DNA of 64,000 bases from the NCBI GenBank assembly GCA_014871385.1, contig CM026423.1, positions 8,890,803 through 8,954,802 of the forward strand, given 5' to 3'. Source of the stretch: Ceratodon purpureus. Taxonomy: Eukaryota; Streptophyta; Bryopsida; Pseudoditrichales; Ditrichaceae. Positions within the stretch are counted from its first letter, which is position 1; every line of letters starts with the position of its first letter. Made by a program: the position numbers and the translations under genes. A model generated the notes under the pieces. That model saw only the letters and a list, made by a program, of their open reading frames with translations. It did not search any database and was not told the origin of the DNA. This document shows positions 15,646 through 48,604 of the stretch, piece by piece.

Positions 15646-15649
15646 TTAA

Positions 15650-17678: not shown

Positions 17679-17682
17679 TTAA

Positions 17683-25500: not shown

Positions 25501-27240
25501 ACTTACTGCATCATTGGAACTTATTGAGCCTCCATCATTGAAAACTATTGCCGCATCATTGGAACTTATTGAGCTTGCATCATTGCAAACTGTTGCTCCA
25601 TCATTGGAACCTATTGCTGCATCATTAGAACCTACTGTTGCATCATTGATAAAATTGCTACTTCAATCTGTTGGTTCCGCAATTGTTGATTCGACACTTG
25701 CTGCTGTAACTTTAATAGGGATGATGCTTGAGCTTGTTGCTCCAATGTATATGTTAATTTGTCTCTTAGAACACCATTCTCTCTATGCAGTAAGGCGAAA
25801 TTCCGTTGCATTGTGAATCTGGTTCCTTGTGGAGCTTCGGCAACTGATGGTTCATCTAGGTCAAAGTTATATTGGCTCCAAAACCGCATTTCTTCCTCCA
25901 CCAATGCAGCAGGAGTTGATAAAGCTGAACTTGATATTGGGGTTGTTGATGGAGTTGCAACCATAGGCACATAATGAAGAACTTTATTTCTTGATCGTAG
26001 CTCATTGTTACTGCAAACTAAAGAGGGTTGAATTGCAGGTGTGCATTCACCACTAGGTTGTAGCTAAATGCTTGAGGAAGGTCGAAAAGGAGCACTTGAA
26101 GATGGATCAGCCATTGATGTCCTCGACATGAATCTACAAGGCCAGCTCTCAATAAATTCCATGTAGCAATTGTACACAACATATTTTCAAATGCAATCCA
26201 ACAAACAAAGACTAAGAAACGCAATCAATTGATATTGGTCGTCACAATTATATGCATAGTTAGAAGTAGCATAAAACTGCAACAAACAATTCAACTATAG
26301 CATGCTACAATAGCACGCAATTAAAATGTAGTTATTATACCTTAAGGTTGATGATGGAATATTAGAAACTAGTTGTGGCCAACAAGAACTAGGTTCGTTG
26401 ATAGGAGTTGATGGTAAACTCACAGCTCTACCATCAATAGGCAAAGCATCACTTGTTGTAAATGAAAATCGAGAGCATGGCTTCGGTAAAGTTCCTGAAG
26501 AGGGATTCAATGGCCTCGTAGAACATCCAGGTCGAGGACAATCAGAATTCGATGAAGGTCCACCTGAATTTGACACTCTAGGTACATTTTCAATGGCAAG
26601 TAGGGGCTTAAGAGAACTGGAACTAGGAAGGCTACTTGAACTCAAATTGGATCTTACTCCTTCACCATCTGCATCACAAGTTTCAGTGAATTCAAAAGAT
26701 TGTCCAGATTGGATAGAACCATTTGCCGCATGCCACTCATATACTTCAACTTTGTAGTGTTTTTCAAAGATTCTATCTCCACTATCGGGTCGTGCCAATG
26801 CTTGTGCAGCTATGGTCGCCAATGAACCAACTCGATTGTATTTTTCTATATTGTTCATATTCCTATGGCCAGTGTTTGCAGCAATTGTTTTTAACGGGAC
26901 TCTAGCAACACACATCCTTGTGATACTTGTTACTCGGCCACTCTTATTAGTGTAGTCCCCTTGTAGACCTACATCTACTGCCATGTCCATCACAACATGA
27001 CACAAAGATAACTCTCCTAAATTGATTGTTGATTTGAACCACACAACATTCTTGGGGTGAGGAATAGGAGATAGAAACAAGTGAGTCGATTCTGGCAAAT
27101 TTGGTGGCATGTGAGCAGTCAAAGCCTTCGAGGTTCTTATCACATCATGGTCATGGGAGAAGACAAGCTCACGAAAATGCTCTGGTTGGTATTTCGTCAG
27201 GGTGGGTTTATGATTCTTCGAGGTTGTCTCCAGGTACTTG
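25501..27240 (-). pseudogene. Decayed tyrosine recombinase gene, DUF3504/Crypton-like, copy 1
   Basis: The minus-strand frame from about 27240 to 26295 holds the C-terminal catalytic half of a eukaryotic tyrosine recombinase. In order it reads SKNHKPTLTKYQ, VVWFKSTINLGELSL, YTNKSGRVTSITRM, ANTGHRN and IEKYNRV. Catalytic positions are K (26945-26943) in place of the usual His, R (26936-26934), the HR of GHR (His 26867-26865) and Tyr (26840-26838). A Ser-rich tail follows to a probable donor after AAG near 26341. A further segment, about 26130-25632, encodes RFWSQYNFDLDEP and a Gln-rich coiled coil, then Met/Gln repeats with several stops. A TAG at 26066-26064 and the later stops sit where Gln is expected. 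The N-terminal half and the first catalytic Arg were not found. Alternative: one gene with unusual splicing. Confidence 0.7.
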
Positions 27241-28892
27241 TGCGTAGATACAAAAGAATAAAATTAGTTAAGAGTGGAGTATCCTAGTGCATACAAGACC
27301 AATGCTCGTGGACTTGATAGCTAGTGTAATTTCAAAACTAAAAAATGTGATAATTGCATTACCTGATCATCTCTATACTTAATATATAATGAATGAAGCA
27401 TAAGAGATTTTTCAAGCATCTTTACAGGAGAAGGCTATTTCTTTGTACAATTATCATTTGCAATTTTTTTGATGTATGATTGTATCATTCAATGCTCCAT
27501 TTTCTATGGTTACATCCATAAACAATTGATCAATGCAAAGGCATGAAACATGCATAAAAGGATTTGTTGCTGCTATTTAAGACCTCTACCATGGCAAAGA
27601 TTGTCCTCAAGTTATTTTTAGACTAGTTTTGGCCAATTAATCATAGGTGGACAATTTTATTTTAAACTTCTGCGGATAAAATGTGAGCTTCCAAAAATGG
27701 TGAAATGTTACCAATTTGGTTGAAGCATGTGGATTTCACCACGTTGATGTCAAGTGGAAAAACACCATATTTGTTAAATTGAGACTTTTCACAGTCTCAA
27801 TTTAATGCTTGACTGTAGATTTTCATTGATTTCTTGATAGATTCTATATTTGTCAGATTTTTTTTTAGTATATATGGGAAGATATAATTAGAAAGTAAAA
27901 AAAAGTTTAAATTGTCTCAAAATAATTACTGAAATTGTAGGCAAAAAGTCTCAAAGTTCAAAAATTGTCTCAAAATTACGAATATGGTCATAAAAGAATA
28001 TTACCAATAAACTCTTGTAAAAATAATCATTTTGTTGTAGTGGCCACTCTTCTCATGAAGATTCTAAGTATATCTAGCAATTAAATTGTAATCCTTACAT
28101 ACTTCAAAGAGTGGGCCAAATAATTTGAAGATCCTCAGGCTAAAATAATAATGTATTACATGTTTAACATATACCATCCCAAATCCAATCTTCTATGAAG
28201 ATCAAAAGTATTCACGTAGCAATTAAATCTCAAGCAAATTCACATATTTTACACTTGATAACAATTTATGAAGCTTAAAACTTGAATGATTTATCCTACT
28301 TACTCATATAGATGTCTAAAAATAACAACCTCAAATACTCATAAAAAATCACATGAAAAAAAAAAATATCATTCTTACTGAACTCGTACATCAAAATCCA
28401 AAGTCTCCACAAGGAAAGTCATCCCACCTAAAAATCAATCCGACACATGCGCCCAATTGCTCGATCTGCAACCTCTCTCTCCGTGACGCTGCAATGGAGA
28501 TCGAAGCTCCAACCGAACTGGCACCAACTCCTCCAACAGTGCATGATCGCGCAGATATCAGCCCGCATCGCAACCAATCTCCGAAACATCACACGGAGGC
28601 CACAACCAAAGGGTGCCACGCTGCCATATGCAGCCTCGATGTGCGGTGGACATGCCATGCCTTATCTTCCCCCCTCAAGGCTCACAGCTGCCCCCCTCAT
28701 CCACTTGTCCCCTCTCACAACCATGCTCCCCATGTTCCAACTCACTCCAAAGCTATGTCCAACTCAACACCATCTTCAATCATCTAACTTGGCTCCTTAA
28801 TCACTGACAACTTCTCAAGGTTTGGTTTTGGATCATTGGTTTGGAAGCTGTGAGTGAGTGAGGGATTGTGTTGCAGTGAAGGCAAGTTAGCG
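27241..28892. other. Intergenic sequence and promoter of the LHC-like gene
   Basis: AT-rich to about 28350. From 28380 it becomes GC-richer and holds overlapping frames on both strands (28353-28800) without domains. The right end is the promoter and 5' leader of the LHC-like gene starting at 28893. I saw no N-terminal recombinase domain here despite looking for one upstream of copy 1. Confidence 0.4.
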
Positions 28893-31139
28893 ATGGCGCA
28901 GTGTGCGATGCAGATGCGGGCTGTGGTGAGCCTGGGGGATGTGGGAGTTTTAGGAGTGGAGAGCAGGACTGTGGGTGCTGCGTCCAGGTTGGCGAGTGTG
29001 TCGCAGGGGTGGCGCGCGGCCAATGTTGCGCAGCTGAGGGTGGCTGCTGCGGGGCGCGTGGAGTTGCAGCGGCAGTACAATTTGGTGGCAGGTATGGATT
29101 GGGTTGGGTTGCATTGCATTCGTGGTGGTTGGATTATGTTGGATGATGAGCGAGCTGAATTGGTTACAGGTAGTGGCTAGGGGTTACCAATTTGCGGTTT
29201 TGGATGTGGTTACCAATTGTGCACATCGCTGTGGTGGTTGAAGTTTGGTAGATGTGTTTTGAGGGTGTGGTGGTTTGCGCTGCGGGATCTTTGGCAATCG
29301 GGAGTGATGCGTGTTGAGATGTAATTAGAACGATAGCAGACTTCTCGGTTTTATTTCCTGAGCAATGTGCCCATCTGAAATGGGGATTGGGTTTTCTCGT
29401 CATCTACACTCGCATTGCTACTGTTCTGTTGGGACCTTGATTTAGAAGACCTAAATCAGAGCTGTGTAGATGTGATTGTGCGTTTGATGGGAATTAGGTG
29501 GTCACATGTTCATAGATTTACAGAATTTGTTACAAGTAGAGTCTCCTTTTATACCTTTCTTATGGTGCCAAGCCTCATAATACTTTGAAAAGACTATGAT
29601 TTACAAGCTTGTTATGTATGTAGGCCTAGGGCACACCATTAAAAATCGTGATGTAGAGAGCGATGTATTTTCATGCTTCGGTACATAATTTTTCTATTTT
29701 TTTATTCTTTTGGGTATGACAGTGCGCGCTGCCGGGGAGCCAGAGGGAGAAGGTGATGGGTCAGGATTTGGGTTGGGAGGCAAGGGGGCCTTCTTCGGCT
29801 TTGGCCGGTTCCAAGAGCTTCAAGTGGGTCGGCTTGCTATGGTCGGCTTTGCGGTAATATGTCCACCCTAAATATCACTGTCAAGTTGATTCGGTCTTTT
29901 TATCTTGTTTGTTGCCTCCTATTTACTTTGGTTGGAACTGACATGCCTTATTTGGTGCGTACACCAAACCTTATATGTTCAAATTCTCTATCCTCATGTT
30001 GTCACAGGATTATGGATTACTTTGTTTCGTATCACAACGATCCTCGGGGAATTGAACGATGTAGCCTCAAACTGAACCCCGAACAGGATTGTATTATCGT
30101 AGTGCTAAGTCACGCAAGTGCACTGTCCCCTGAGTAGACAGATGTAGATGGTTTCATCTGAAAGAAAATTCGCTGATTCACTGGCAGTAGTGTGGAATAA
30201 TGGTACTTCTAAGTTCTTGACGGGCACGCAACGCTCACGTTCATACGAGGGTGTTTTTTCTGCTTGCTTCCCTCAGATTATTTTCAAGAAGTATTTCCTT
30301 GGAATCTTAACTTGGAAGGCACCCGTCATGAACTTAAATCTTTGACAATGTTCAAGCCTCTGAGCTAGATCTAACAAGACGACGTTTCTCAAACTGTGCT
30401 CACTGGAGCATTATTTCATGTATCCATTCTTAGGACAAAATGAGTGTGACATTTCTAGCTGAATCAGGTTTTTATCAAGTGAAAGAGAATGTATCTGAGC
30501 TAGCCGTAGTTCATTTCAACGTTGATAGTCATGTGATGTCTCAGAAATTCTGTTGTTGGGGCTTTCTGTCACACTGCTATGCTTCCATAGCCTTGATTAA
30601 AGACTCACGTCGTTCATAGCCTTGAAAGAGTCGCATGTCTAGAATTGGTAATGACATTTAACTGATCAGGTGTCCATATGGAGTGGCTTCCTTTAACAGG
30701 CTGCTGTCATTATGGAGGTGATTACCGGTAAGGGTGTCCTCGGGCAACTAGGCATCAACCCTTTGGCTGTGAAGGGACCTTTCCTCGCGGGCTTCTTATT
30801 TCTCTTGATCGGGGGGCTTCTCGGTGGTTACGTTGTTATCAACAACCCCCCGGACACTACCAAGGCTCCTCCTAATGATGGCGATGGATTGCCCAGAAAT
30901 CCTCTCAAAACTTATGATCCCCAGAACATCGACCCTCTAACGACGTTCACCCGAGGTGGAGTGGTGGAACGTCCCAGTGGACAGGTAAAGGCTCGTTCTA
31001 TTATATTGCTATGCTCCTTATTTCTGCACATGCTCTATATAACTGGTACTAACGCTGTGTACTGGGTTTTCCTGTTTCTGTGCAGAAGGGCAAGGAGCCA
31101 TATGTGTCAGACCTGGATTTACCTCCACCAAAGAACTAA
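28893..31139 (+). CDS. Light-harvesting-like (LHC superfamily) thylakoid protein
   Basis: Four exons, 28893-29091, 29723-29853, 30700-30984 and 31086-31139, join with GT-AG introns into 222 residues. The N-terminus (MAQCAMQMRAVVSL...) is Ala/Ser/Arg/Val-rich with few acids, as in a chloroplast transit peptide. Residues about 93-125 carry one LHC-type helix, ELQVGRLAMVGFA followed by EVITGKGVLGQLGI. This is closest to the helix motif of PsbS (ELFVGRLAM, ITGKGALAQL). A second hydrophobic helix at about 137-157 lacks LHC residues, and a hydrophilic tail ends DLDLPPPKN. Such one- or two-helix relatives (SEP, OHP, LIL types) act in photoprotection and pigment handling. The family is clear but the subfamily is not. 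The open frame continues upstream only from a GTG, so the first ATG is used. Confidence 0.85.
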
Positions 31140-34100
31140 ACTGAACTAGTCGAAACTCCTCAGTTCGAATTTTGAGTACGCATGTAACATAATATTTGGG
31201 TGCTGTTCTGCAAGGGATGCAACCAATGGTCAGAGACATGCAAATCTGTCCTCTCAATCGTAGTATATTTTACGCAAAGCTGTCAACTGTATCATGTATC
31301 TTGCGCTTCAGGCATGAAGTAGTAATCTTTAAGTACTTTTTTGTACAAGTAACTGTAAGATTTGACATCATATCCAACATATGTTTTGGGACCACTTAGT
31401 CACCTATCTGATGTTTTGATCCGTGTGTAGCTAACAAGTTGCGGAACTGTGAGCAATCTACGAGCCACACAAAGTCTTACAGTGGTTTCACATGGCTGTA
31501 GTATCCATGGGCAGAGTCTGGAGTGCTCTTTCTTTTCTGTACAATTCAATTTTGCTTCTGAACCAACACTCATGATCGTAAACATACTCGTAATAACCAC
31601 TGCGTCATAGTCCGCTTGGCACCGTGGTCTATTGAGTCTCTTAAATGTATTCATATTCTGAAACCCACCCGTGTCGAATACTACTTCCTCATGGAGCAAA
31701 TTTCTCAAATTTGGTGTAGTCTGGGTTACTTCCCTTATTTATGCTGCTAGAATAGTTTGGTCCTCTGCCTCCACCATAGCTTCATCGCTTGGCATAAACT
31801 CTGTATAGTACCAAACAGATTCATACAAAAATGGCAAAAACTACATTTTACCAATCGTGAAAGATTCAACAACTGTGAGAGAGCGACAACACATCAGAGT
31901 CATTGTATATGAGCTCTAGGGTATCATCTATGAGTATATTTCATCTAAATGCTATAGTTCCTGATACTAGTTACTTTACTACCTACACAATTAAGTAATG
32001 GTGTAGTACCATCACCACCAGTGGTGACTGCTCTGTCGGGGCTATTTCTAGCCCCTGCGGCACTTGGCCCGCCCACTCCCCCACCCCACCTCAGCCCTCC
32101 CAAACTAAATCACTGATTATTGGCCTAAAATGGCCCATGGTCCCCATAGGCTCCTACCTCGAAATTGCCTTGCTCTGTACTCCATCTCTCCCATCTGAAC
32201 TGCACCTCTTCCATTTGAACTTCAACACAAGAAGGAAACATAAAACAATGATTACCTGCAGAAAATGAGGCGCCTTGTGAAGAAAGGAGAGGCCCGGCAA
32301 GCTGCCGGGTTGGAGCACTTGAAGGCCGTGGCCGAAGCGGCAGAGACCAGTGGAAAATCAACGGTGGGGGGCAGTTGGGCTCCAGAGCCGCCGCTGGTAC
32401 CGATACTGCGACCGTTTGCCCATACGGTGGCGATGCTCTAAAGAAGTCACTCAATTGCTTACCCAATTTACGACCTTGTGGTGTAGGAGTTAGTTGCTTG
32501 CTTAGTGAGACACATCCAACTGTGTTCGCATATTAGTGGTTCCATATTTAGTTTCCCTAACAAGTCTTAAGTGCTCATCAACCTCGCTGGACATGACGGG
32601 TTTGGTTTGTATATTCTTGCTTTTTTTTCTACAGTAAATGATCTCTTTATTTGTGTCAATTTTTTATTTTAAAAAAAGAAGCTTCATCCCTCTCTACATG
32701 CGTTCCACATGTCCACACGCATGCTCATATCTTCCTCAGCAATATTTAAATAGTAATGGTCTTACGCTTTTTGTGAATGGTTGAAAAAGAATTGATTTTT
32801 AGAAGCTCATGTCTCCTTCAATTTTGGATGTCTAACATTGATCTTTAATTATTTGGAAACAACATGATAAAGACTCTAAGTCTTTACACTAAGACAAAGT
32901 CCGGCACTCAAGCGTTGGGCAGGGAGCTGGGCTGCGGCACTCAACAGCGGCCTCTCCATCTAACCCTCTATTGTTACAACAAATGCAATAATTTACCTTT
33001 TTTCATGAGTTTTACCTGTCATAGTAACTTCATTTTCTCACCAACTAAGTGGCTTAATCTCAGAAGTTTTCTCATTGTTTCGGTGAGGCACCTGTATTGA
33101 ACATCTCTCTCTATATTGATGACAAATAGCATATTTTATGGCTCCATGACATAGCTCTTGAATGTTTCTGAATGTGAAGCTTGTACGTGTAAATGCTCTT
33201 GAAATGTCTCTCTTGTTGTTTAGAATTTGAATTTGGAAAAATTAGAAGTTGCTTGGTGCAGGATTGGAGGAAACAAAGGTTGTTGGTTGATAACATTGTT
33301 GTCAAGTACCTTGATGTGGTAGAGAGGGTTGCAAATTTGGTCTCGAATCATGAGTAGCACCAATTTGCCTGATCCTCTATGCTTTCACATAGCAATTTAC
33401 TAAAGCTTTTGTTAGGGGCGCTACTTCTTACGATTGATGCGTACAACAAAAAGATCCAATGCAAAGGTAAAGTTCCCTAGGAGTGATATCCTCGGGCTGG
33501 GCTACTTAGCCATCTTGAAACAACCATAGAGGTAACTATCCTAACCAAGTCAAAGGACCCAAAACCTGAAATCATTCATCAAAATTCTTGCACAACTTCA
33601 GTGACTACACAACTACCTACCCTCGCAAAACCTGACACACCCCACAACTTGTTATAACTACATAACTTCCTCACCATAGGTTTGCATAACTTCTTCTACT
33701 ACCTCCTCTCCATATATCACACATATGTATGCATTGAATCAAGCAAGAGAGTCGTAATACATTCTAAAATGGAATAAGTTATGTGGTGCATATCTTCTGC
33801 AAACACATATCAACTTTGAAGAATGTAAGAAAACATGTATATATAATGAGTGAACAAGTGTTAAACAATAAGATAAACTAAAACTCTGAAGTTGAATTTG
33901 GAGGTGCCACTACATCCTTGAAAGTGTGAGACATGTATAAAGATGGTTTATCCTTGCTTCGAAGCCATGTGATTGATTCCGCCAATCAACATTTTAAGGA
34001 AGGTATTGCTCCTGTGGGCTACATCCTTGTTATCTACACTCACTCGCTCATAGGATTGTCTATTGTGTCCTACTAATTCACATATATGGAGGTGAAGAGA

Positions 34101-35860
34101 TACATATGGTAATTCCATGTCATACTCCACATCGACCTAGATTGTCTATTAGGACGCCATGTATGCAACACGGTAAGTATTTACCTAGTTAGTTGCTTAC
34201 GCCGAGGTTGACCCGAGACAAATCTTATTATGTCGTGTTAGCGAGGCCTGTTACGACGCGATATGTCATGTCGGCATGTCACGACATGGATCGTCACGAT
34301 AAACACCGCGGGCCGCTCCCAGTTGTTAGGGCTTGTTGTAGTGTTACATGCCTAATTTAAGCAATATTTAAGTATTTTGTGACACTTTTAATTTTAGTAG
34401 TGTTAGAACAAGTGCTGGAGTGGATTGTAGACTTCTGTTGAGTAAATTGAAGCCTAGCCTAGATGATTTATTATATCAAAACCCCAGGTTTAAGATAATG
34501 CTATCGTTCCTTAGATATTTTTTCCAACAGTGTTCTGTCTATTTTTGAGCTTGCAAGGTAACTTAGTGGCATCAACCACTTTGAGAGTGATGCGCCAAGT
34601 TGTCAACCAAGGTTTAAGTTAAGCATTCGTCACCTTCCTGGCGTTGAGGAATAGTTCTGCATGTTGAATTGTTATTGCTGAGTGGATAATTGGCAGCAAA
34701 CAACAGAACGAAGTTAATAAGTTCTGCATGTTGAGGAATAGAACTGAGTTAATAATCTAATAAAATAATTGCAAATATGATAAACTATTCCCAAATAATG
34801 ATTCCGCAATCTCCCTGAGCCTGAAGACTCTCGGACCGAGGTTGCATGCAGAAGACCTTTAGTTGATACCGATCGAATCCCAGACCCCGTCCGGACATAT
34901 TCGTTATAAATTTCAAAAGAAAGCTAATTTACAAGGATGGAAAATGTGAAGCCATGCAAGCATTAAATCAGATGGCTGCACGTGTACTCTTGTAAAAAAC
35001 CAACGATATATTTGAACAATATTCGATCGAAGTAAACACTGGCTCCTCGACAGTTTCCTAGCATTGAAATCTGTTTTTATCTGTCAAACAAATCGGAAGG
35101 AACCAAAGTTCAACTTCGAATAACATTCAGTGCATATTTCAATGCATTTGCATGTACCAAAACCGCAACACGTGTTTGATGTTCACAGGAACGTTCCATC
35201 TGAATATCATAAAAAACTGCTCAAAAATAATTAAATCGATTGCTTCAAAAGATCAGCTGAATACTAGGTCGAATATACTACTCTGTAGTACGATTCAGAT
35301 AAGCCACATTTCTACATCCAGAAAACTTAGAAAATACAACTGCATGCACAATATGAGTCACTCTGTCGAGGTGGGTAAACGGAAGCTAAAAGTGGCACCG
35401 AGGTTTTGTGCATGCATCCGTATAGATGCTCTGTCTCTTCTGCACACTTGAATAAGTTATATGTAATCTATTTAAATATGGCATGCACGATTGAAGTCGC
35501 AAAACCAGATTTAATCTCTGCATTCAACGGAACCTGAACAGGACCTAAACACACATTCACGTCTACATACTAAGTTAATTAGTGGTATGTGATGTACAAA
35601 GGTTGCTCTTAATCACCTGAGCAGTAACAGCAGTTCACACATTCACGCCTCCAAGAAATTGACAGGTAACGTGATGCAGATTCACAACCAAGACATGGAA
35701 TGTGATTAATATTAGATTATTCAAACGCCTTTCAAAGAGGACATACTTATTTACATTGCGAACGACCTTCTAACACTCATTCACTGCGAAATCAGTGATC
35801 TCACAAATGCTCCCAAATGAAACTCAAAGTTCTAAAGATCCAATCCACTAATCATGTCAG
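31140..35860. other. Intergenic sequence between the LHC-like gene and desiccation gene 1
   Basis: The first few hundred bases are probably the 3' UTR of the LHC-like gene. A C/G-rich block at 32000-32450 with short palindromes (GGGGCTATTTCTAGCCCC, CACCACCAGTGGTG) interrupts AT-rich DNA; its ORF (minus, 32125-32466) has no known domain. A local duplication of GTTCTGCATGTTGA is seen at about 34655 and 34720. A GC-richer patch at 34200-34320 has GTCACGACATG-type repeats. No gene recognised. Confidence 0.4.
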
Positions 35861-37618
35861 TTAGTAATCATCGGGATCCAAGTAACTAGCAGCAATGACA
35901 CCCTGAGCACCCTTGGGGAAGAAGCCTCCAGGCTTTGAAGCATTCCCTGTTCCATACACAGTCTCCAGCACTTGTTGAGCAGTTCGAGCATACGCCACAG
36001 AGTTGTTGTCTCCTGCCAGAATGTTGCCTGTGACTTTCATTTCTGCACCCAGATACTTGGGCACGACTAAACCTTCGTCCACAAGAGCATGGGAAAGGTT
36101 GTTCCTCAGATTGGAAATGGCGTTGCTGAAGTTGGCCACGGTGTATTTGTATGGGGGCACTATCTTGTCCTTCATTCGGTACATCTCGGTGCGAATCACA
36201 GCGTCTTGGCCTGATTCCACTGCCAACAAACCGGCAACAAGCTGCACAACAACAAATTTAGGAAGTGATTAATCACAACTGATAATCATGATTTCGGAAA
36301 CCCCCGAGGATGACATAGTTCCTTCCAAATTCTAGAGGTATTAACAAGATTCTTCAGAGTGATGTGAAATATCTCTCAGAAGGGATTTTCTTCTCTCCTA
36401 ATAATGCTCCTTATACAAAGTACAAATGGACATCTGTTAGTAAAACAAGATTTCAAACTTGTCCACTTAGCCAGTGGTCTGCCTGCTTCTATAACAGCAA
36501 ACCGCAATGCCATTGCACTATGGCCAGCACTGGGTTATATTAGAACGAGAAAACAGAGGACATCCGATACAATTAGGGAGTGCTAGCAACGAGATTAACT
36601 TCACATGGAGTCCTGTTTGCTGGACAAGACTTGTGGCCAATCTCCATAGATTAGTGACTAGCTAATACAAAACTCATAGAACTGTTGAGGGAAACATTAC
36701 GCTAGGGAAAGCCAAGACTTCCAGACAGGAATCCCATTTGATTTGAGATGGCTCTCACTCTCTTTTGACTCAAATCGTAAATGAATGAAATGACAATCGA
36801 CTAGAGATTCGTTCAAAAGCTGCGGAGGTTCAGAATGGAGGCTGTATGCAGCTTCTTACCCTCTTTGAGTTGTAGCCCGTGAGCAGAGGATTGGAGCCCA
36901 CATAACCTGTCAAACCAACATAAGGAATAGTGTATGTAGAGATGAGGTAGTTCAAACTATTCCTGTAAGGATCAAAGGGAGGGTTCAGCTTGTGGCCGAA
37001 GGTAGCTAAGAAGGCCTCGTCCATGGTGTGAGCCCAGTTCTTCTTGCTGAGATCTAGAAGTGTACGGGGGAATGCACAATGGGGTCTATAATCCAACAAA
37101 GCCTTGATAGCCCTGGAACCAAAAACACACAAAAAAGCATCAAATACTGATCCATCACTAAACAGTACAATTCAGTCATGCATGCTTCAAATCCCAAATT
37201 CTCAATCCTAATCTTTCCTGCAGAGCTCAGACCAAGAGTCTCATAAAACCGAAACTTACCTAATGTGACCCACTTCCTGAAGACCAAACTGATAGAAGAT
37301 ATCCTTATAGTAAGGATTCAGATTGGCCTTCTGAACTCCAATGGGGGGAGGGCCTCCATCAACCAGATACTTGGCTTCAACATCCAACCCATAGCCAACA
37401 GATCCCCACAGGAAATACTCAGCTTCGAGATACTCCAAGTTCAAAGCAACTTCAATTAGCTCTTTGTCGAGGACGGTGCTCCCATTGCTCTTCTTGCAAC
37501 TGTACGTTATGTTCAGACCCCCGATCATAAGCTCATCATCATCAGAAGTGGCTGAAGCTGACACAACCAAGCTCACAGCAAGAACTAAGAAGACCCAATT
37601 AGCTCCGGACGACCCCAT
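35861..37618 (-). CDS. Desiccation-related protein PCC13-62-like, copy 1
   Basis: Exons on the minus strand are 37618-37260, 37112-36860 and 36241-35861, giving 330 residues. It belongs to the ferritin-like PCC13-62 family, first described in the resurrection plant Craterostigma; the biochemical role is unsettled. The N-terminus MGSSGANWVFLVLAVSLVVS is a signal peptide, so secretion is likely. Ferritin-like helices carry LNLEYLEAEYFLW and GLQEVGHIR (Glu/His candidates for metal ligands), then AVESGQDAVIRTEMYR. NGS near the N-terminus is an N-glycosylation sequon. Introns are in phase 2 and phase 0, as in the other two copies. An in-frame ATG eight codons upstream (37642) exists, but I chose 37618 because MGS begins all three copies. 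The product ends YLDPDDY. Confidence 0.92.
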
Positions 37619-37736
37619 CTTGAGAGAACCAGCTGCATGCATTCAAGGAGCACAGGCCCAAGTTGAGAGTAGACAGTGGAAGTGATCAGACAGAGAAGCA
37701 CTAAGTGTGATACTATGGGAGTGAGACATGGGCTGA

Positions 37737-37743
37737 TTTATAA
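37737..37743 (-). promoter_or_regulatory. TATA box of desiccation gene 1
   Basis: TATAAAT on the minus strand, about 120 bp before the chosen start codon. This spacing is similar to the TATAAATA seen 124 bp before the start of copy 3. Confidence 0.55.
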
Positions 37744-38652
37744 GGAGGCTCTCGGAAGTGAAGGGAGGTAGTATCAGGTGGACGCATCTAGTGGAAATTG
37801 GGTATACCTGTCAATAATGTTTCATTTTTCTTATAGTTTATGGATACCACCTGCTCTGCAAGAGGTGCTTCCAGAATGGCTGTTTGTAAGGTCTCTGATG
37901 CAAAATTTCTGCCTCTCAAATGGCACTGTAGAGTTTAGAATGTTGGTTTGACTGATTGAAATGAGGGGAGTCTGGAGAAATTTTCATGCTCATGGAGTGT
38001 GGAAGTCCAAAAGCAATACTATCCGTGTGCCACATTTGTAAGAAGGTTAAATGATGTAAGCTAGTCAACTGTTCGTCATCTTGTTGGAAAATGTGACTTG
38101 AGGCAGGTCACTTATTACCTGTTACATGCAGTGATTGAATTATTGTGCTAAATCATTGCTAAAATTGGAAGAGAAAAACCACCGGCATGCAAGTAAGGAT
38201 CGGATTTAGAACATTTTCAAAAAATAGAGTACCAACAAGAGAGACTTCAGATGAAAGATTACAATGATCTGCTCAATCTGGCACTCTTTGTTTGAATCCA
38301 TCAGCAGTTTCCGTTTTACGTATTAATCTTTGATTTGTGAGCAGTGTTCACTTACATAGACTATTTAGTACAAACCATCACTATCTCAATGCTTCTCAGG
38401 CCTCATGAGTTATTTTCCCTCTTTACACTATCACTTTCTCACTTCTCAACGCTTCTGAGGCCTCGTGAGTCATTTGTCATCTTTCCACTAGGGTAGGACC
38501 TTCAAAAATCGTTAGGTATTGGAGCTGAGTCTTATTTCTATTATTAGAATTACTGATTTTTTGGCTTTCTTCGAGACATTGTTGAGGGGATTACAACAAA
38601 CTTTAAATTGTATTTATTGAATATAATATCAATTAGTTGTGAATTATTAAGT
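37744..38652. other. Upstream region of desiccation gene 1
   Basis: Presumed promoter sequence on the left, then AT-rich intergenic DNA up to the TTAA-flanked element. Nearly repeated text CTCAACGCTTCTGAGGCCTC/TCAATGCTTCTCAGGCCTC occurs at about 38388 and 38446. No gene seen. Confidence 0.4.
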
Positions 38653-38656
38653 TTAA

Positions 38657-39516
38657 CCCCTAAACGGCCATTGTCCTGGAATGGGCGTTTTTGAAATTTG
38701 GGCAGGTTCCTAAAAATTCAAATTTACTTGAACAATTTTGAATTTTTTTGTGGTAAAAGGTTTTTTCAAGAGGTTTATGGGGATATTTTTTTTATTTTTT
38801 TTGGATGAAGTGAGAAAAAGTTATGCTCCTCTGAGCATAAAACGCCCTTCCGCGGGCAGGCTCTCAGCCACTGTGAATGCAGCAATTTCTGCCCAAAACT
38901 GCCCAAAACTGCCCAAATCTGCCCAAATCTGCCCAAATCTGCCTAAAGACGAAGCTTTGAAATTCCACCAAAAATTGAGATTTTGATATTTTTCAAAAAT
39001 AAAAATTTCTATGTATTGATAAGGTAGTAGAGCATGTTCTCACCGTTCGGATTTTTAATCCAAATTTTTTTCACATGCTATTTTTATTGTCAAAAAACGG
39101 CCTTTGTTTGTGAATTTCAGTATACCCCCTAGTGGAAAATGATTGTTTTGGCAACCTTCTACAACTTTTTTGAATATAATTTTTTTAACACAATTAGCTA
39201 ACTCAGTCTTCTTTGACGTGCATCAAAACCCCCAAATTCCATAACGGAAAAAAATGGTTTTTTGGGCCTTCAAAACTCTGCTGATCCCTTTTTGGCAGGG
39301 AAAAAAAACTTGTTTTTCAACTTTGAACATTATGATCTTGCAATTGGTGAGGAATGAGTGTGTATGATTTGGTGGACATGTAGACATAGAAGTTAGCTAC
39401 AAGATCTTACGGTTAGATGTACTAATTAAGACCCCGAGTTTGCAAAATCAACCTTGCTTTGAAGAGGGGCTGTTTTCATGCAGTTTTGATGAAAAACACC
39501 CTTGGCCGTTTAGGGG
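38657..39516. mobile_element. TTAA-flanked CCCC-ended element, 860 bp
   Basis: TTAA flanks at 38653-38656 and 39517-39520. The terminal inverted repeat CCCCTAAACGGCCA is perfect over 14 bp at both ends. AGATCTTACGGTTAGATG lies about 100 bp from the right end. The interior (CACCAAAAATTGAGATTTT, CTCACCGTTCGGATTTTTAATC) is related to the right half of the 15650-17678 element. A short array of GCCCAAAACT/GCCCAAATCT units sits at about 38890-38945. No protein is encoded, so it is non-autonomous. Confidence 0.8.
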
Positions 39517-39691
39517 TTAAAGTTTATGATGTGCATGATAAGTGCAATTGATGTGATTGGGTGTTTTCATGTAAGGTTGAACAATATAATGTTGTTATAA
39601 AGTGATGTTTATGATTTATATTGGTTTTGTGGAATAAAATATTCAAAAATAAAGTTCCATTTTCTTCACCATACAATTGTACAATTATATA

Positions 39692-39950
39692 CTCCCTCTA
39701 TTTCCAAAAGAAACCATGGTTTCCACAAAGTCTCTGTTTCACAAAGAAACCATTGTTTCATTATTACCAGGAAGTCAACCATCAATATACACATTGAAAA
39801 CTGTGTTAAGCCAAATGGCATTATGGCACTTGAAATCTGTGTTAAGCCAAATGACACTTTCAATTAAAATAAGCAAAATTAAAGGGGGTGTCACTGTGCT
39901 TAATCCTGGCCCGAAAAGGAAACCATTGTTTCTTTTGGAAACAGAGGGAG
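39692..39950. mobile_element. Stowaway-type MITE (Tc1/mariner)
   Basis: Ends are CTCCCTCTATTTCC on the left and GGAAACAGAGGGAG on the right, with TA immediately outside both. These match the Stowaway consensus CTCCCTCYGTTTC with TA target duplication. The 259-bp element has subterminal repeats of GAAACCATTGTTTC and no coding capacity. Confidence 0.85.
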
Positions 39951-40703
39951 TAGTGTTTTTCGGTTATTGAAACAATGTTTCTAAAGCACCATATCTTAGA
40001 TACTAGCTATAGCAAAGCGCTTTTGGCACAAAGTATATTCTCCAATGATTTGCACCTTGTACATAACTTCAATCATGATGAATAGTGATTTCATACACGA
40101 TTAATTGGATATAGGAAATCAATTGAAATTTTGACAAAATTGGTTATGGTGAACTGTTAGCCAGATTGTATCCATGACATACTAATCTTCATGAAATGGA
40201 GTTATAGATGTCATGAAATTGATTTTGAAAAGTAATGAATATACATATCATGAAATATACTGTGAAATTCATTGATTTTTTTGTTAAATTGAAGTCTATG
40301 TAGTGGAATTGGACAGTGATTAAACTGAAGCTAGTCACAGGTTACACTAAAATTGATGAAAACTATTATGAAGTTGTTTGATAAAATTGTAAAGATCAGT
40401 TTGCATAACTGGGAATTCAACTTGTGAAAGGAGAAATTCGTGGTCAAGATTTCTGAAAAGCTACAAAACAAAGAAGTAGAGTTTAGGCTGATGCATAGTC
40501 CAAAATAGTTAAACACTGAATTTCCAATGAAGAGTTGCCACAATATAGTCTGTACTGTGATGTGCTCAAAACTCACCACACATATCTACTGCTACCTTTG
40601 TTAACCTCTACAAAGCTCTCACACCTCTTCACAATTCCTCAAACAATCCAATATATCCCACAAATAAACAAACAATCAAGTATCCAATGCTTTACGCATT
40701 ATT
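39951..40703. other. Intergenic sequence downstream of desiccation gene 2
   Basis: AT-rich; the right end should contain the 3' UTR of the minus-strand gene ending at 40704. Nothing else recognised. Confidence 0.45.
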
Positions 40704-42147
40704 CTACTTCTTCAACAAACTGGCAGGTATGACACCCTGTGCTCCCTTGGGATAGAAGCCTCCAGGCTTTGAAGGATCCCCTGTTCCGTAGACAGTCTCC
40801 AGCACTTGCTCACCAGTTCGGGGGTACGACACGGAATCCTTGTCTCCAGACAGAATATTTCCGGTGATGTTCCCTTCGGCACCCAGATACTTGGGCACAA
40901 CCAAACCTTCATCCACAAAAGCATGGGAGAGGTCGTTCCTCAAAGTGGAAATAGCATTGCTGAAATCTGCAACTGTGTAGTTGTAAGGAGCAACTTTCAT
41001 GTCCTTCACCTTGTACATCTCAGTTCGAATAACAGCATCCTGACCTGCTTCAATTCCCAACAAACTGGCGACAAGCTGCGCAAATAACAGCAATAATCAA
41101 ATGTCAAAGATTGAATTAAGGGCAGATATCCCATTCTCAACGGTCTCTAGTTTGAACAATGTTTCTAGTAAGAGAGATTCAAGTCCTTCAGCAACATTTG
41201 AAGAATGGAGATAATTTCTCACTTTTTAAATATGTTCCTATCAATCAAGACTCAATGACCAATTACCAATGAGACGCAGAGAGAGAGAGACTTTTAGATT
41301 ATCAATCATTTAGAAACCACTAAATTTTGAGCATTTGTCACAAATTTCCAAGTATGTGATTAGTTTCTCTTACCTTCTTTGAGTTGTAGCCTGTCAGCAG
41401 AGGAATGGTACCCACATATCCTGTCAAGCCAACGTAGGGAATAAAATATGTAGAGATAAGGTATTTCAAACTGTCTTCATAAGGGTCATATGAAGGGCTC
41501 AACTTCTTGCCAAACTTGGCCAAGAAAGCCTTGTCCATTGCATCAGCCCATGTCTTCTTGCTGAGGTCCAACAGAGTCCGGGGGAAAGCACATCTGGGTG
41601 GAAAATCCAAGGCTGTCTTGATTGCCCTGCAAGATGAAAATGAAAATGAATTAGAACATTGCTGCAAATCTGAAATCTCGTCATCTTGTAACTCCAACTG
41701 CTCCCAATTGCTCAAAGTCTCCCAAGCTACAGCAAGTAAACTTTGAAATTTCAGCTCCAACAACAAAAACAATATCATGAGAAAAATTCCAGTTCCCATG
41801 CACTGTGTATACCTGAGATGACCAACTTCCTGGAGACCCATCTGCTTGAAAATATCTGTATAATACGGATCCAAATTCGCCTTCTGAGCGCCAATCGGTG
41901 CTGGTCCCCCATCCACCAAGTACGGTGCAATGACATCCAAGCCGTAGCCATAAGATGCCCACAGGAAATACTCCGCCTCGAAATATTCCAGATTCAAAGC
42001 AATTTGGGAGAGCTCCTTGTCCATCACCGTGGTTTTGTTCCCAGCGTAGCACTTGTAATCTATGTCATTGCCGCCAGTCGCTGCAGCGCTTCCCAGTAAC
42101 GTCAGGAATATGCACAGAGCTAGAACTGGCAACCTGGGTGACCCCAT
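40704..42147 (-). CDS. Desiccation-related protein PCC13-62-like, copy 2
   Basis: Exons on the minus strand are 42147-41813, 41626-41374 and 41075-40704, giving 319 residues. The signal peptide is MGSPRLPVLALCIFLTLLGS. The family helices LNLEYFEAEYFLW and GLQEVGHLR, then GIEAGQDAVIRTEMY, are conserved. The NKT sequon after the Cys near the N-terminus is shared with copy 3. It lacks the acidic C-terminus of copies 1 and 3 and ends PASLLKK. Intron positions and phases and the 253-nt middle exon are identical to the other copies. Its start is about 3.2 kb upstream of the end of copy 1 in the same orientation, with the 860-bp TTAA element and a Stowaway MITE nearby, so these two are a tandem pair later loosened by insertions. 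Confidence 0.92.
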
Positions 42148-42284
42148 GTTTGCTAACAGAACAGAAACCTGCAGTACTCACTCAAGGAAACAGCAATCTA
42201 GAGTAAGTGGATAGAACTACAGTGGTAGTTCTATAATACAGATACTGTTGGGCTGTTGCTTGGAGGAGAGAGGAGAGGGGTCAG

Positions 42285-42294
42285 TATATATATA
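42285..42294 (-). promoter_or_regulatory. TATA box of desiccation gene 2
   Basis: TATATATATA about 140 bp upstream of the start codon of copy 2, consistent with the spacing in the other two copies. Confidence 0.5.
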
Positions 42295-44263
42295 GAGGTC
42301 GTTGGAAGGAGGCTGCTCTCGTCATCATTGGAACCTTTAGAATTATTTTAAAACACCTTTGAGGGTGAGTCAGGGCGGAGGGCCATGAAGGTTGACGAAT
42401 GCACTGAAAGAATATCGTGGGAGCTTGCATGCGGAACGGCTGGAGTGCAAGGTGTGTGCAATTGGGGCCTACTGTAACTTCTTTTTGAATTCAAGGTGGA
42501 ACCGGTGTGTACTGATGCATCGTTGATCATCAGTCAAGGGAGTTTTGTGGAAGTAACGTAGAGATGAGTGTTTCCTGTCAGGGACGTCAGGTACCGGTTG
42601 CTGTCTCCTATAATTGCATCTGTGTCAACTCAGTAGTTTCTAATCCAGCTACCTTGATACTTGATTACATATGGCATCAAAATTACCAGTTTGGTTACTT
42701 GGTATAAGGTCATGTGTGTCCATGGTTTATTTCAAATATTTGTAGAAAAATTGTAACATATTCATTGTTATCAGAGAATGGATTTGAGCGTGGTTGTTTT
42801 TCGTATAAGAAAATCATAATCACAAGTCTGCTTCATGGCATAAACTAACATGACTGTCCCCTACCTTGCTGTACATGTGCTTGTGGAAAGGGGTCTGGGC
42901 TTTGGAGTGATATGAACTTATGAAGGTGTGTGGGGGGCAAGTATTGGTGGAGAATTGAGTACTCGGTAGAATGCACCTGAGGTGGGACAAAAAGCAAATG
43001 TTAGGACTGCAGTACTTATCACCTTTACTGGTGTAGATGTGTATCTACCCACAATAGAGGATAGTCCTTGTGAATGAATAAACTTATGAATGAATCGATT
43101 GTGACTGATGCTACCCCGTGAAGAGATAGAAGTTTGGTCTCTTTATTCTCTCCCAATGACTCATGAGTGTGACTCGGTGCTCAAACTTGTTGGCTCTAAT
43201 TTTCTAGTCTTGCCCGCTGTGGGGTTCCTGGTCATGAAGAAAGGGGTTTTTTTTTTAAAAAAAATTGTGCTAAATTAGAGGCAAGTGGCCTCAAATTACC
43301 TTGCAGAGCCCCACTAGAGAATGCCAAATTTTGAGTGGTTATTACGAGCACCAACTTCTAAATTGTTATTTGGGAAGCTTACAAAATGGATTGGTTCAAA
43401 TGTAACGTTGAAGGTCAAAAATTTGATAGATATACATTTGCATAACTGCATTGTAAGTCGTGACATGTACATAGTACAGTACATGCAATTTTCAGTGGAA
43501 TTTTTTGTCTACAGTAATGTACTTATTTGTTTTATGAAAGATCATTTTTATTGATTTTTTCTCAAAAAATGAAAACTGAGAAATTTGGTTCATGAATCAT
43601 AAAGGTAGAAACTTAATTTTTTCAAAAAGATTAAATATTCTTTCGCCAAGTGATGAACCTGCTATGGTGTTTTGGTATTGCTGGTGAGTTCACTTTTGCA
43701 CCAGCTGATCTATTTTGTGCTAAAACAACTTCCCATTCCCAGAGTCCACGTCCTCCTTGCTCACCCCCAAATTTTACAGCTGTCCTTATATTTTGCACTT
43801 TTAACATTCTGTTTGCAGGCAAGTGACTTTAAGTTGGAGGACATATTTCAACCAGATGTACAATTCTCAACATAAGTTAGAAAGAAAGTTTCTGGCACAG
43901 TTTCACTTGTTCATGGCCCCTAATAACTTTTCCCAGAAGAGTTCACATCTTTGCAAGGAAACAGAAAGCAACTAAAATTTTCAACCTTGACAAAATCATT
44001 TGGTGTTTTAAAATTCCAAGGACCTTACTGGCATAGTTGATGATGAACATATGTCCGCTCATAGCATGGCCACACCAGACCAGTTCAACCCAGAAAACAC
44101 TACTAACTAGCCCACATTCAACTGTGTGGCTTTCTGTGACAATTCAGGCACCCGGGATGGCTGAAGTGGCTGGAGGGAGGCATTGCATCCAGCCACCAAC
44201 CTGCCCAACCAGAACACAGGGGCAACCAATTTTGAACTCCCACCGACTTTGCACCCTACCCAA
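42295..44263. other. Intergenic sequence with a decayed hairpin-bearing repeat
   Basis: Left part is the promoter side of desiccation gene 2. The stretch 43090-43320 (TTTGGTCTCTTTATTCTCTC ... GAGGCAAGTGGCCTC) is homologous in order to the MITE at 56205-56545. No gene was found; the ORFs at 43321-43554 and 43672-43875 have no known domain. Confidence 0.4.
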
Positions 44264-44404
44264 CACTAGTGGAAAAGGTGTACAACTACACCAGAGATGA
44301 ACACCAAAAAATGAACAATTACACCAAAAATTCAAATTTCTTGGTGTAATTAGTCAATTTTTGGTGTTCATCTTTGGTGTAGTTGTACACCTTTTCCACT
44401 AGTG
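44264..44404. mobile_element. CACTA-ended MITE with CAA target duplication
   Basis: A 141-bp near-perfect palindrome begins CACTAGTGGAAAAGGTGTAC and ends GTACACCTTTTCCACTAGTG. CAA is repeated directly outside both ends (44261-44263 and 44405-44407). CACTA termini and a 3-bp duplication fit the CACTA superfamily. Confidence 0.85.
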
Positions 44405-44529
44405 CAAATTCAATTAATGTGTGGATTTTTAATACTCTGTATCACCTTGAATTATTATAAGGAATTGTACGTTTAAATTCTCTGCATTTTAAATTATTCT
44501 TCTTTGTCCTCTTAACTGGGAAGTCTCGA

Positions 44530-44695
44530 GTGAAGACATAAAGTTACTCCATTCACAGGTCAAAAGTTGTTTGACTCATAACACGATTAGAAAAGAGCTC
44601 CTGAAGAGATGGAGAGAAGGCACAGTATTAGAGTTCACAAATGGGGAAAGTCTATCTCCATTTTATATAGGGGGACTCCCAATTTAATGTTCTAA
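44530..44695 (-). repeat. Dispersed 150-bp repeat, copy 2
   Basis: On the minus strand it shows, in order, CCCCCTATATAAAATGG, ACTCTAATACTGTGCC, TTCTCTCCATCTC, AGGAGCTCTTTTCTAAT, GAGTCAAACAACTTTTGACC and GAATGGAGTAACTT. These are the same blocks as 21085-21235. It lies just outside the left end of the large TTAA-flanked block. Confidence 0.55.
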
Positions 44696-45739
44696 ATATC
44701 TGCTCAACAAAAATCGGTAATTATATTTATGACATAAATAATGTACCCATTTGAATTCTGATAAAGTTAAAACAATTAAGATTGTTTTTAACCCCTAAAG
44801 TTTTTTCACTATGTTTCTAGGAAGATAATCAAAAACTGCTGTTTTTTTACATAGATTGTGAAGTCAAAAAAAATCTTTCTTAAACTTTCAACCGTAGGAT
44901 CTTGAAAGAAACTACAATTTTGATGTTGAGGAAAAAATTGACCGTAGATATTGTGAGATTATAGCATTTGAAGTTGCAGAAATTGATTTTTTGGATAGTG
45001 CGAGAGAGGATCAACAATGTTTGACTGCTTGTGGTGTGCAATTTTTACATTGCAAGGGTTTGGGGTTTTAGAAATTCACAATGAACACTTCGTCAAATAC
45101 ACGTGTACCAAATATGAAACTTAGTGGACAATTAGAACATATTGAAAAAAAGCTTGCAATCACGACATATGTAAAATCCCTCTCACTTTAAGAGAAAATG
45201 TTTTTATTTTTATTTTTTTATTCCCGTTACTCAATTCCACAGAACTTGACAATCCGAACAGGCAAATCATGAGTCATAACATTTTCTTCAAGATGAAAAG
45301 AAAACCATTGAAAAATCCAAAAATACAAACACAGATGAGGAAACGTCCAAAATAAAATTAAAAAACAAGGCTAGGAAAGCGGGTAGAAGGCCAGCCCACC
45401 CGTGCAAGGCAACCCCGATGGACCACACCCTACACTGGACCAAGCCTCAACCCCGCCCCAACTTGCTCAGCAAAGTAACCCTGCCCCACTACGCTTGGTC
45501 ACAAGGTCGTACTGTCACCCCGCCCTGACCCGGTGCCCCCTCCTTTGCTTGCCCTGACCCGCACAGGCTTCTATATAAAAAAAAAATATGAATTGCCAAG
45601 ACTCTTAAAATGGATTATAAAAATTTCATTCAAACAAAAACCAAAAAATATATACATGAATTGAAGTGTGAGAGTATAATACTAACTATCTCCACTTCCT
45701 CAAACTTTAACTTAGTGATTAAGCTCTAAACACTCACAA

Positions 45740-47905
45740 CTACATGATCAAGCAAGAGCCACAACCCTCCACACCACAATGCACATGAATGTAACCGCCT
45801 AGAATGTTTTCAATGTTGTCTTTTGAAGAAACCTTTTCTTTCGACAATTTAAACCATGAAGGAATTTTAAACTCACTGAGTACATTTGTTGCCGCAATGG
45901 GATCCAAAACATTAACAATAGTAATAGGACAGTTGGAAATATTCTCAAACGAAGGACCCGAGTGCACATGATTAACAACCTTTGGAACCTTTGATAAACA
46001 TGCAGACTCCATTCGCCGTTCAATGTGCACTTTGATGAGCTTCTCTACACCTTCGATGCCGGCAGAGCTTGCCCAAAAGTCATCATCCCAAGTCGGATTC
46101 TGTAAAACATTGCTTTGTAGAACAGGTCGAGAGCATGTGGATTGCACACAAGTTGAATTGATCATTGATGGCACATTGTTTTGCAAAGCATGTGCACTTG
46201 TGGATTGCACACAAGTTGAAGTGCTCATGGGTCCAATAGTATTTAGCAAAGAACTTGATAACGTTTCCACAAAACTTGAACTCATTGACATGCTGCCATA
46301 ACCAATTTCAGGAGATTGAGATATCTGCCCTTGTTTATGCATCTCCTCCTCCTCCAATAAAGCTTCTTCAAAACTCAAAGACTTGCCATCCTTATCCTCT
46401 CCAGCAATGATCTGTTGCATAACACAGTCATGAAACATCTTGTTGCCCCGATTGTACCTAAATCAAGTAAAACGTTTAATTTAGTGACCACACTTAAGAA
46501 ATCAAAAGATAAATGTTCAATGTTAAATTACAAAATGATACAACTTTGAATATCAATAAAAGGTTCTCACTTTGCATACGACCTCAGATCTCGATGACCT
46601 GTGAGTTCCATCCCATATTCCACTAGAACTATTGCATCCTCTATCCAAGTGATTCCAGTATTTCGACATGTCTTGTTAGTAATATGTTTTCCTACTAACT
46701 AAGGTATATCTTCAATCATCCTTTGGGTATACTTTCCAAGTGTATGAACCCCAACAAGAAGTTTTGAGTACCAAACAGGGTCATTGATTCAACACTTTCC
46801 TTTTGGAGTTAAGAAAAGTGAATGAGGTCGAGGTTCTGATTCTAACCAAGTAGGACGATGGGCCATCAAGATTTTAAACATGTTGACAACATCACTCAAA
46901 TGGCAATCAACAGGTTTACGAAGCTGATCTACATAGCAACGAGAGATATCTAAACGCCAATTGTTGGATGCTCCTTGAGAAAAACGAAGCAACTCACCCA
47001 AAGGACCCTTATGCAATGAAAAATCTTCAGCGCTTACTTTCTTGAACTCACTTCCTCCTCTAACAAAGAAATGCTTCATGCAAAACAAACCATCATGTGA
47101 TTTGCACCGCTTGGTGTTTGCGCTTGGCACTTTTCTTGACTCAACATTAGTGATTCCTCTAGGGAGTGAGGACATCACTACTTTTAGTTGCTTTTTCCAA
47201 ACCTACAGCCAAACTTCAAGTGGCCGCTTCATCTCCAACAATTTTGATACGTTGAAACCTTGCATCTTTGAAAATATTGAAAACTTGATAAGGTTTGGAT
47301 GTTTCAATCGAACGTTGAGCTTGTCGAGCACAAATCAATCTATTGAAAGCTCGTAATAGACCCTAAATGCTATTTCACATACTAAAAAATGGAAATTAGT
47401 GTCACAATCACAATCTACAATTTAATTAATTCCAAAATTGATGATATTCTTTCATGCAAATGTGCATATGATTTAATTGAATACTTTAACTCAAGAACAA
47501 TCAGAGTTCATAAAATTGAAAGCTAGTTGACATTCCAAATCATATGGTTTTCTTGCAATTACATACCTACTAGGAGGATACAAAGGCGCACATGTAAAAT
47601 GAAGTCACAGAGCAGATCAACCAATGGTTTGATGGATTCCTGCTTAAACATATCTTCAATCAACTATTGGGTGTCCAATCCACGAAAAACACGCCAATCG
47701 TCAAAAGCATTACGAGCCCAAATTTCTGCAGCCTTACTCCTTCTACGCCCGCCCGCATCAACATTTTGAACTTCTTTAGGATTGATTTTGCCAAAACGAT
47801 CACTAAGCTTCTTTTGTTAGTGAACCAACTCACTTAAGGACTCGCAAATTGTTGTTCCTTTGCAAGCATCTATAACCTCGGTCCCATCGCATGCACCTGT
47901 GACAC
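45740..47905 (-). pseudogene. Decayed tyrosine recombinase gene, DUF3504/Crypton-like, copy 2
   Basis: Minus strand. Exon A (about 47905-47571) holds an N-terminal core-binding-like domain, GRRRSKAAEIWARNAFDDWR. An intron with donor GTAGGT (47570-47363) follows. Exon B has LLRAFNRLICARQAQR, the first catalytic Arg in FFVRGGSEFKKVS (47061-47059), RPHSLFLTPKGK, DPVWYSKLLVGVHTLGK, ITNKTCRNTGITW (K 46674-46672 in place of His; R 46665-46663) and LTGHRDLRSYAK (His 46596-46594). A 112-nt intron (46570-46459) splits the Lys codon before the catalytic Tyr (46457-46455) of KYNRG. Exon C is a long tail ending CLIM (stop at 45740). Stops at 47666-47664 (TAG), near 47175-47215 and near 46790, plus frame shifts, make it a pseudogene. 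More complete than copy 1. Confidence 0.75.
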
Positions 47906-48604
47906 TTCATCGCATGGATCTCAAAAGTCCTCGTTGTTTAAGCACGGTAAGCTCCTGGACCACGGTGGTTCATGGAGCTTACCCTACACATTAGCCACCT
48001 CACTAACATCCCCATGGAACTATTTTCCTATGCCACCTCATTGCAGGCCCAATTTATAGGATTCATTTCCCGCCACCTCTTCCCTTTGCTCCTGAACCTG
48101 TCTTTGTATTTCATGAATTGGTTGTGAGCAACCTCGAAACGCAAGTTTAGAATTTTACAAGAAAAAATGTTATACTGAAGATGGTAGGATGACAAATAGA
48201 TAAGCTAAAAGATAAACTTTAGGTTTAGTTCTTAGCCAAATGAAATTCATCCTAATCATTGGTAAAGTGAATCTTTCCTTTCATTCTCATATATGTTTCC
48301 TAAAAAGATTCAAGTAGTATTTCATGTGCTTGCATAACTTGCCAAAGCATATTTTCATCCTAGACTCTTTGTCTTCTTTTGTTCCTAAAAAATTGTTTTT
48401 TAGGTTTTTTTTTTTTTTTCACTTAAAGGATGGACAATAGTCTTTATTTTGACCATTTGTATAGGGACTTCATGAAATAATAGAATTTCTAGGAAAGAAA
48501 TATATATTATCATTCTTGTTTATTCAACTTAATAAAAATATTGTTCTCAACACGCTACAATTGTCTTCAGTGTGCAAAGTTCTATATACAATTAGCTAAC
48601 TTAA

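Follow-up and report, generated by a model that had tools for sequence, protein, structure and literature searches.

Two decayed tyrosine recombinase genes with lysine at the histidine position point to a radiation of DNA transposons in the moss Ceratodon purpureus

Since two loci on the minus strand of a 64,000-nucleotide stretch of Ceratodon purpureus DNA (C3:8890803-8954802, in an assembly that totals 362 Mb and has 151 contigs; hereafter the window, with position 1 = 8890803) read like genes for tyrosine recombinases (YR) with a lysine where the catalytic histidine is expected, we asked what kind of genes they are and whether this lysine is a sign of decay or an old property of a whole family. 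Judging from sequence comparisons within this genome, the two loci, which we call copy 1 and copy 2, are very probably decayed copies, from two old groups, of YR DNA transposons that radiated in this moss genome.

The motif order W[FY]..G, TNK[ST]xR, TGHR, and KYNR, from which the initial annotation had started, can be read at both loci. Copy 1 has TSKN, VWFKSTINLG, TNKSGR, TGHR, and KYNR in one open reading frame (ORF; 27263-26295). Copy 2 (47810-45740) is readable in pieces as a YR, in the order KHFFVRGGSE (with the first Arg), VWYSKLLVG, TNKTCR, TGHRD, and, after an intron, KYNR. Its N-terminal piece is similar to the exon ..SEIWARNAFDEWRRFRG.. of a relative and its second piece to the exon ..MLRAVGRLIRARQEQR.. 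of a relative, and one piece 5' of the KHFFVRGGSE exon reads ..LLRAFNRLICARQ... The intron that had been annotated just before the catalytic Tyr is indeed there; when the reading is joined across it (46570-46458) the result is AKYNR, which copy 1 has without an intron. Using a profile that recovers the first-Arg exon of copy 2 at E 4.6e-9, no such exon was detectable for copy 1 in window positions 26801-31500.

That the two loci are homologous recombinase genes is borne out by several comparisons. Aligned to each other, they reach a Smith–Waterman score of 112, against a maximum of 53 in 2,000 shuffles, with 46 of 132 residues identical (about 35%), in agreement with the wide divergence first described. 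When the window was searched with tblastn, copy 2 as the query found copy 1 at E 4e-8, and the reverse direction gave E 8e-6. Mismatches between the copies number 68, 55, and 86 at codon positions 1, 2, and 3, respectively, as would be expected had the encoded protein been maintained during much of their separate history. In Pfam, copy 2 matches DUF3504 at E 1.4e-5 (25.7 bits, curated cut-off 29.7) and copy 1 matches Phage_integrase weakly (E 0.016 and 15.4 bits for residues 1-163, curated cut-off 27.1; E 0.059 for the whole ORF), while none of the four shuffled versions of copy 2 that were scanned, out of eight, matched either family. Among eight proteins of relatives, two pass the curated cut-offs, namely the spliced L001 protein for DUF3504 (34.9 bits against 29.7) and L043 for Phage_integrase (29.0 against 27.1). 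With the PF12012 profile, two loci lie over the cut-off in the host genome and none in 14 control genomes. A complete lack of recombinase profile matches, which had been named as evidence against a YR identity, is therefore not what we observed. Beyond the moss genome, no relative was found in IMG/VR scans, prokaryote contigs, or phages (tblastn), NCBIfam gave no match, PHROGs gave only two matches, both near E 0.1 and one of them “integrase” for copy 1, and in the Protein Data Bank a single-sequence query gave one unrelated weak match and a two-row profile none.

Lysine takes the place of histidine in both copies, as annotated (TNKSGR in copy 1 and TNKTCR in copy 2). When Lys was changed to His in silico, the Phage_integrase score of copy 1 rose from 15.4 to 21.4 bits, and the score of copy 2 was unchanged because its DUF3504 match stops before the Lys position (residue 150 of the piece). 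A 12-row moss profile puts the Lys opposite the His of two recombinases of solved structure, in the motif HILR of 3nkh, an integrase (E 0.069), and in HTLR of IntI4 2a3v (E 0.24), which are weak matches; it also listed human QRICH1 (9hjt, E 0.88), and three of the six listed chains are neither recombinases nor kin of these.

How general the lysine is was assessed in the same genome. A search with one exon of a locus on contig C6 gave 163 exon-level matches, which is a lower bound for matches, the number of loci being smaller because one gene can match exon by exon. Thirty loci from this search, 40 added stretches picked among the matches listed, mainly for covering the Lys position or having long open frames, and copy 1 made a census of 71 rows, corresponding to 70 distinct loci because L008 and L016 coincide. 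Of these 70 loci, 68 have Lys at the His position, one has Glu (L013, with eight stops), one has Arg (L073), and none has His; thus, the intact His-bearing relatives that would have spoken against the initial annotation did not appear among the loci examined. The Arg of KxxR is present in 65 of the 71 rows and the catalytic Tyr in 55, the others showing a gap (11), X (2), Cys (2), or Ile (1). The first-Arg exon was detected in 48 of 75 sources, some of which are too short to hold it and some overlapping, and RGxxE occurs in 42 of 51 stretches. Two young families that could be read through, C3/C11 and C5/C9, have the complete set of R, hairpin K, K, R, H, and Y, the Lys of SK being what we take to be the hairpin Lys; at this position copy 1 has Lys and copy 2 has Asn. 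The predicted active site of the family is R-K-K-R-H-Y.

The two loci are both pseudogenes. The reading of copy 2 is interrupted by four in-frame stops (47666, 47218, 46791, and 46701), the last two inside its catalytic exon, and by a frameshift near 47163. The decayed stretch 3' of the copy 1 ORF (Table 1) is probably a further exon of the same gene, and the relative L050 bears a tail that resembles it (..RFAMQKNVALLRRENGILKQQL..). With both window copies broken, one might take their Lys for a decayed His of an R-H-R-Y recombinase of the ordinary type. We regard this as highly improbable, since the Lys is found throughout the census apart from two loci, including in long open frames and near-identical young copies, and since the two exceptions have Glu and Arg, not His.

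The age of the lysine was approached with a tree. After exclusion of L016 and of the short Arg-bearing row L073, 69 loci formed 33 clusters at 80% identity, 32 of which have Lys. In a quick tree of 28 rows, from which five decayed representatives including L013 had been dropped, two large groups part at the midpoint root, with copy 2 in one and copy 1, placed near L038 (68% identical), in the other; support is weak on 10 of the 25 inner branches. Because the copies fall in different deep groups, the Lys either was present before these groups parted or changed more than once. We infer that it is ancestral to the moss radiation and not a product of decay, repeated change being less likely. The proposal that KxxR is ancestral to a plant lineage thus holds in a narrower form, for the radiation in this one genome with its two deep groups.

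Do these genes travel in mobile elements? Closely similar copies on different contigs suggest that they do. The stretches C3:8969283-8980139, situated 14.5 kb beyond the right edge of the window, and C11:12603652-12614506 are 99.83% identical with unrelated flanks on both sides. Since the common end GTATAGGG (at 8969287 and 12603655) lies three or four bases inside their match, the element measures 10.85 kb, its left end running from GTATAGGGTGAGCCCCCC directly into a strong hairpin and its right end being GTAGGGTGTTACGT. Several kilobases of it lie outside the YR exons and include a 175-residue frame (L077 6-533, minus strand, C3 near 8.9706 Mb) on the strand opposite to the recombinase gene, which matches no Pfam family and is perhaps a second element gene. 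Two copies on C6 and C9, whose proteins are 45 and 42% identical to that of copy 2 and which belong to its group, have in common a stretch that spans 6.2 kb on C6 and 5.5 kb on C9 and is broken into pieces, the two longest pieces being 96% identical and the shorter ones 80–94%. Their flanks differ on both sides as well, and their ends are GTATAGGGTTAAGCCCCGG, leading into a palindrome of about 105 bp, on the left and GGTGCTTAACG on the right. Therefore, two distant families have GTATAGGGT and a hairpin in common on the left. A pair from the other group, C5:6458973-6466658 and C9:11776701-11784380, is 99.1% identical over 7.7 kb with a sharp right end (..CGGCAACTAC); in the gene of this family the first Arg is found in FLVRGHSEL, and an open frame of 731 residues holds the other catalytic residues. 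Finally, L026, L027, and L028, on three contigs, are 99.9% identical over 2.5 kb. Taken together, these pairs indicate that the elements have moved in the recent past.

Two further explanations have to be weighed at this point. One is a domesticated, non-mobile family of genes for DNA-binding proteins, like KIAA1958, ZMYM, and QRICH1, expanded by gene duplication. The introns and the long Ser- or Gln-rich tails fit it, and the DUF3504 match and the weak QRICH1 match point to such kin. We nevertheless consider it unlikely, since near-identical copies sit on different contigs, with both flanks differing in the C3/C11 and C6/C9 pairs, and since the known DUF3504 genes have lost the Tyr and the second Arg (PMC3212892; the papers cited by PMC number are all cited from excerpts) while most moss rows retain both. 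The other, to which we give slightly less credence still, is that the YR is part of a larger retroelement of the DIRS or Ngaro type, with a reverse transcriptase elsewhere in the element. Such retroelements also carry YR genes, and the 10.85-kb element has room besides its YR exons; yet no reverse transcriptase was recognized by eye among its ORFs of at least 110 residues, of which the YR and the 175-residue ORF were submitted to Pfam, and self-comparison of part of this element and of the C5 stretch revealed no long repeats at the ends.

The junctions offer some hints on how mobile YR elements of this kind might insert. No target-site duplication was seen at the C3/C11 and C6/C9 junctions, and inspection by eye found GT at seven of the eight junctions of these families and GG at the C6 right junction. 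The C6 copy (L003 and L005, around 84.557-84.563 Mb) sits in a tandem array of about 44-bp units that run CACGT-AACATTT across the insertion place, a site that could give an exact comparison of filled and empty states. In the mechanism that we propose, the recombinase would excise the element, probably in circular form, by way of a 3'-phosphotyrosine. The excised element would then insert at a target that has no more than a very short stretch, perhaps GT, in common with its ends, which would leave no target-site duplication. The Lys of KxxR would do the work of the usual His in the acid–base steps at the scissile phosphate, as in SSV1-type integrases, which is plausible because integrases with R..KXXR..Y show activity. 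A palindrome upstream of copy 2 (GGTAAGCTCC..GGAGCTTACC, 47946-47983) was considered as a recombination site and discarded, since it occurs in exact form just once in the window and is unlike the delimited ends.

Several observations weigh against our interpretation. Both window copies are broken, the element ends around them were not found, and short end patterns gave just one window match each (52436 and 30823, plus strand), which we take as chance. Both copies and six of the eight relatives' proteins score under the curated Pfam cut-offs. The census consists of chosen loci, not a random sample, from one genome, and in L013 and L073 the Lys has been replaced. The GT at the junctions may just belong to the ends of the elements themselves. 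On its left side the C5/C9 pair has no clear end, pieces of 96–97% similarity resuming further left, and the ends of this pair are unlike those of C3/C11 and C6/C9, so that ends differ between the two groups. Weighing these points, we think it reasonably likely, with less confidence than for the origin of the two copies themselves, that mosses harbor a lineage of YR DNA transposons that is large, has not been described before, and was active recently. In this lineage His would have changed to Lys once, at an early stage, and the Lys would have persisted in two or more deep groups; the elements would reach about 11 kb, bear hairpins at their ends in one group, and insert without duplicating the target site.

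Table 1. Features of the two recombinase loci in the window, with their catalytic codons, and the end pattern of the elements
Feature	Window positions	Strand	Basis or remark
Copy 1 ORF, 322 residues	26295..27263	-	Homology to copy 2 and L038; weak Phage_integrase match
Copy 1 putative hairpin Lys codon	27218-27216	-
Copy 1 Lys codon of KxxR (AAG)	26945-26943	-
Copy 1 Arg codon of KxxR	26936-26934	-
Copy 1 His codon (TGHR)	26867-26865	-
Copy 1 Tyr codon	26840-26838	-
Copy 1 decayed 3' part: coiled-coil-like frame, Gln-rich repeats, several in-frame stops	25503..26147	-	Translation
Copy 2 N-terminal YR piece, KLSDRFGK..CDFILHV	47583..47810	-	Translation; stop 47666-47664
Copy 2 second YR piece, GLLRAFNRLICARQ..DVLTP	47162..47362	-	Stop 47218-47216; frameshift at end
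Copy 2 catalytic exon: first Arg, WY..G, TNKTCR, TGHR	46571..47163	-	DUF3504 E 1.4e-5; first-Arg profile E 4.6e-9
Copy 2 first Arg codon	47061-47059	-
Copy 2 Lys codon of KxxR (AAG)	46674-46672	-
Copy 2 Arg codon of KxxR	46665-46663	-
Copy 2 His codon (TGHR)	46596-46594	-
Copy 2 intron, 113 bp, GT..AG, 75% A+T	46458..46570	-	Splits the Lys codon directly before the catalytic Tyr
Copy 2 last exon: catalytic Tyr (46456-46454) and Ser-rich C-terminal tail	45740..46457	-	Translation
Element end pattern, GTATAGGGTNNAGCCCC			

Other genes in the window are plant-like by Pfam and include homeodomain-leucine zipper, ferritin-like, and mitochondrial pyruvate carrier genes. The homeodomain-leucine zipper gene (2238-3239, minus strand) includes an HD-ZIP_N domain. 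The ferritin-like gene is present three times (35861-37642 and 40704-42177 on the minus strand, 58058-59408 on the plus strand), with DNA 72–82% identical by pieces; two of the three copies were scanned, and PF13668 is strong for 41338-42177 and weak (E 0.066) for 58854-59408. These genes presumably resemble desiccation-related PCC13-62 proteins. Repeats of several kinds are also present: 1) a near-perfect inverted repeat at 44264-44404, with 67-nt arms that are 93% complementary and 7 nt apart, which looks like a small hairpin element, 2) a direct dispersed repeat at 48594-49532 and 60939-61886 (71% over 969 nt), 3) an inverted repeat pair at 15646-16344 and 16976-17682 (75%), and 4) related tandem arrays around TTGATCGAATATCTCTG in opposite orientation at 4542-4990 and 12330-12814. 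Rfam found nothing in the window. Beyond the window, many of the 163 exon-level matches are on C6 (110,524,308 bp), which is probably a sex chromosome, a Ceratodon purpureus sex-chromosome assembly being given as 110.5 Mb (PMC9273592).

These elements may already have a name in Repbase or in the Ceratodon genome paper. One named element, Lanisha (Maumus, McDaniel and Carey 2020), reportedly comes from Ceratodon, and its authors are said to study this same moss. Lanisha is an EnSpm-like superfamily with a DDE transposase, not a YR, and was set aside as the identity of the moss elements (PMC12730594). Among the literature matches listed there was no paper on YR DNA transposons from mosses or any other land plant, and the excerpts name none from a land plant either. 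Regarding plants more generally, according to a 2012 study streptophytes were not known to have complete versions of one DIRS1-type class (PMC3537659), and one table column of a plant transposable element atlas has 535 “Crypton” entries (PMC8729191), so automatic annotations exist. A moss with at least 163 exon-level matches, some near-identical across contigs, would be a plant system where such elements could be caught moving, and their fixed lysine makes it testable whether Lys can replace the catalytic His in a eukaryotic recombinase as it does in archaeal integrases.

Among known systems, Crypton DNA transposons, which their main study (Kojima and Jurka 2011, PMC3212892) records in animals, fungi, oomycetes, and a diatom, are DNA elements with a DUF3504-related YR, as the moss elements probably are, and the lack of visible target-site duplications in the moss elements is a further likeness. 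They differ in their R-H-R-Y tetrad, as against the prevailing Lys and absent His of the moss loci, in their hosts, and in the end hairpins of one moss group. Judged by these features, the moss elements are probably Crypton-like in working. The DUF3504 genes KIAA1958, ZMYM2/3/4, QRICH1, and WOC have the DUF3504 domain in common with them, but these genes have lost the catalytic Tyr and the second Arg (PMC3212892), whereas most moss copies retain both residues, and they appear to be mobile. As to the lysine, KxxR is not new to tyrosine recombinases: archaeal SSV1-type integrases, for which activity has been shown, are defined by R..KXXR..Y (PMC8371274). By the counts of first-Arg exon, KxxR, and Tyr, the moss relatives have the same order and, compared by motif description, the same Lys substitution in the catalytic tetrad. 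In contrast to SSV1, an archaeal element whose integrase gene is split on integration, the moss gene is eukaryotic, intron-bearing, and whole between the element ends, and its sequences match the DUF3504 and Phage_integrase models.

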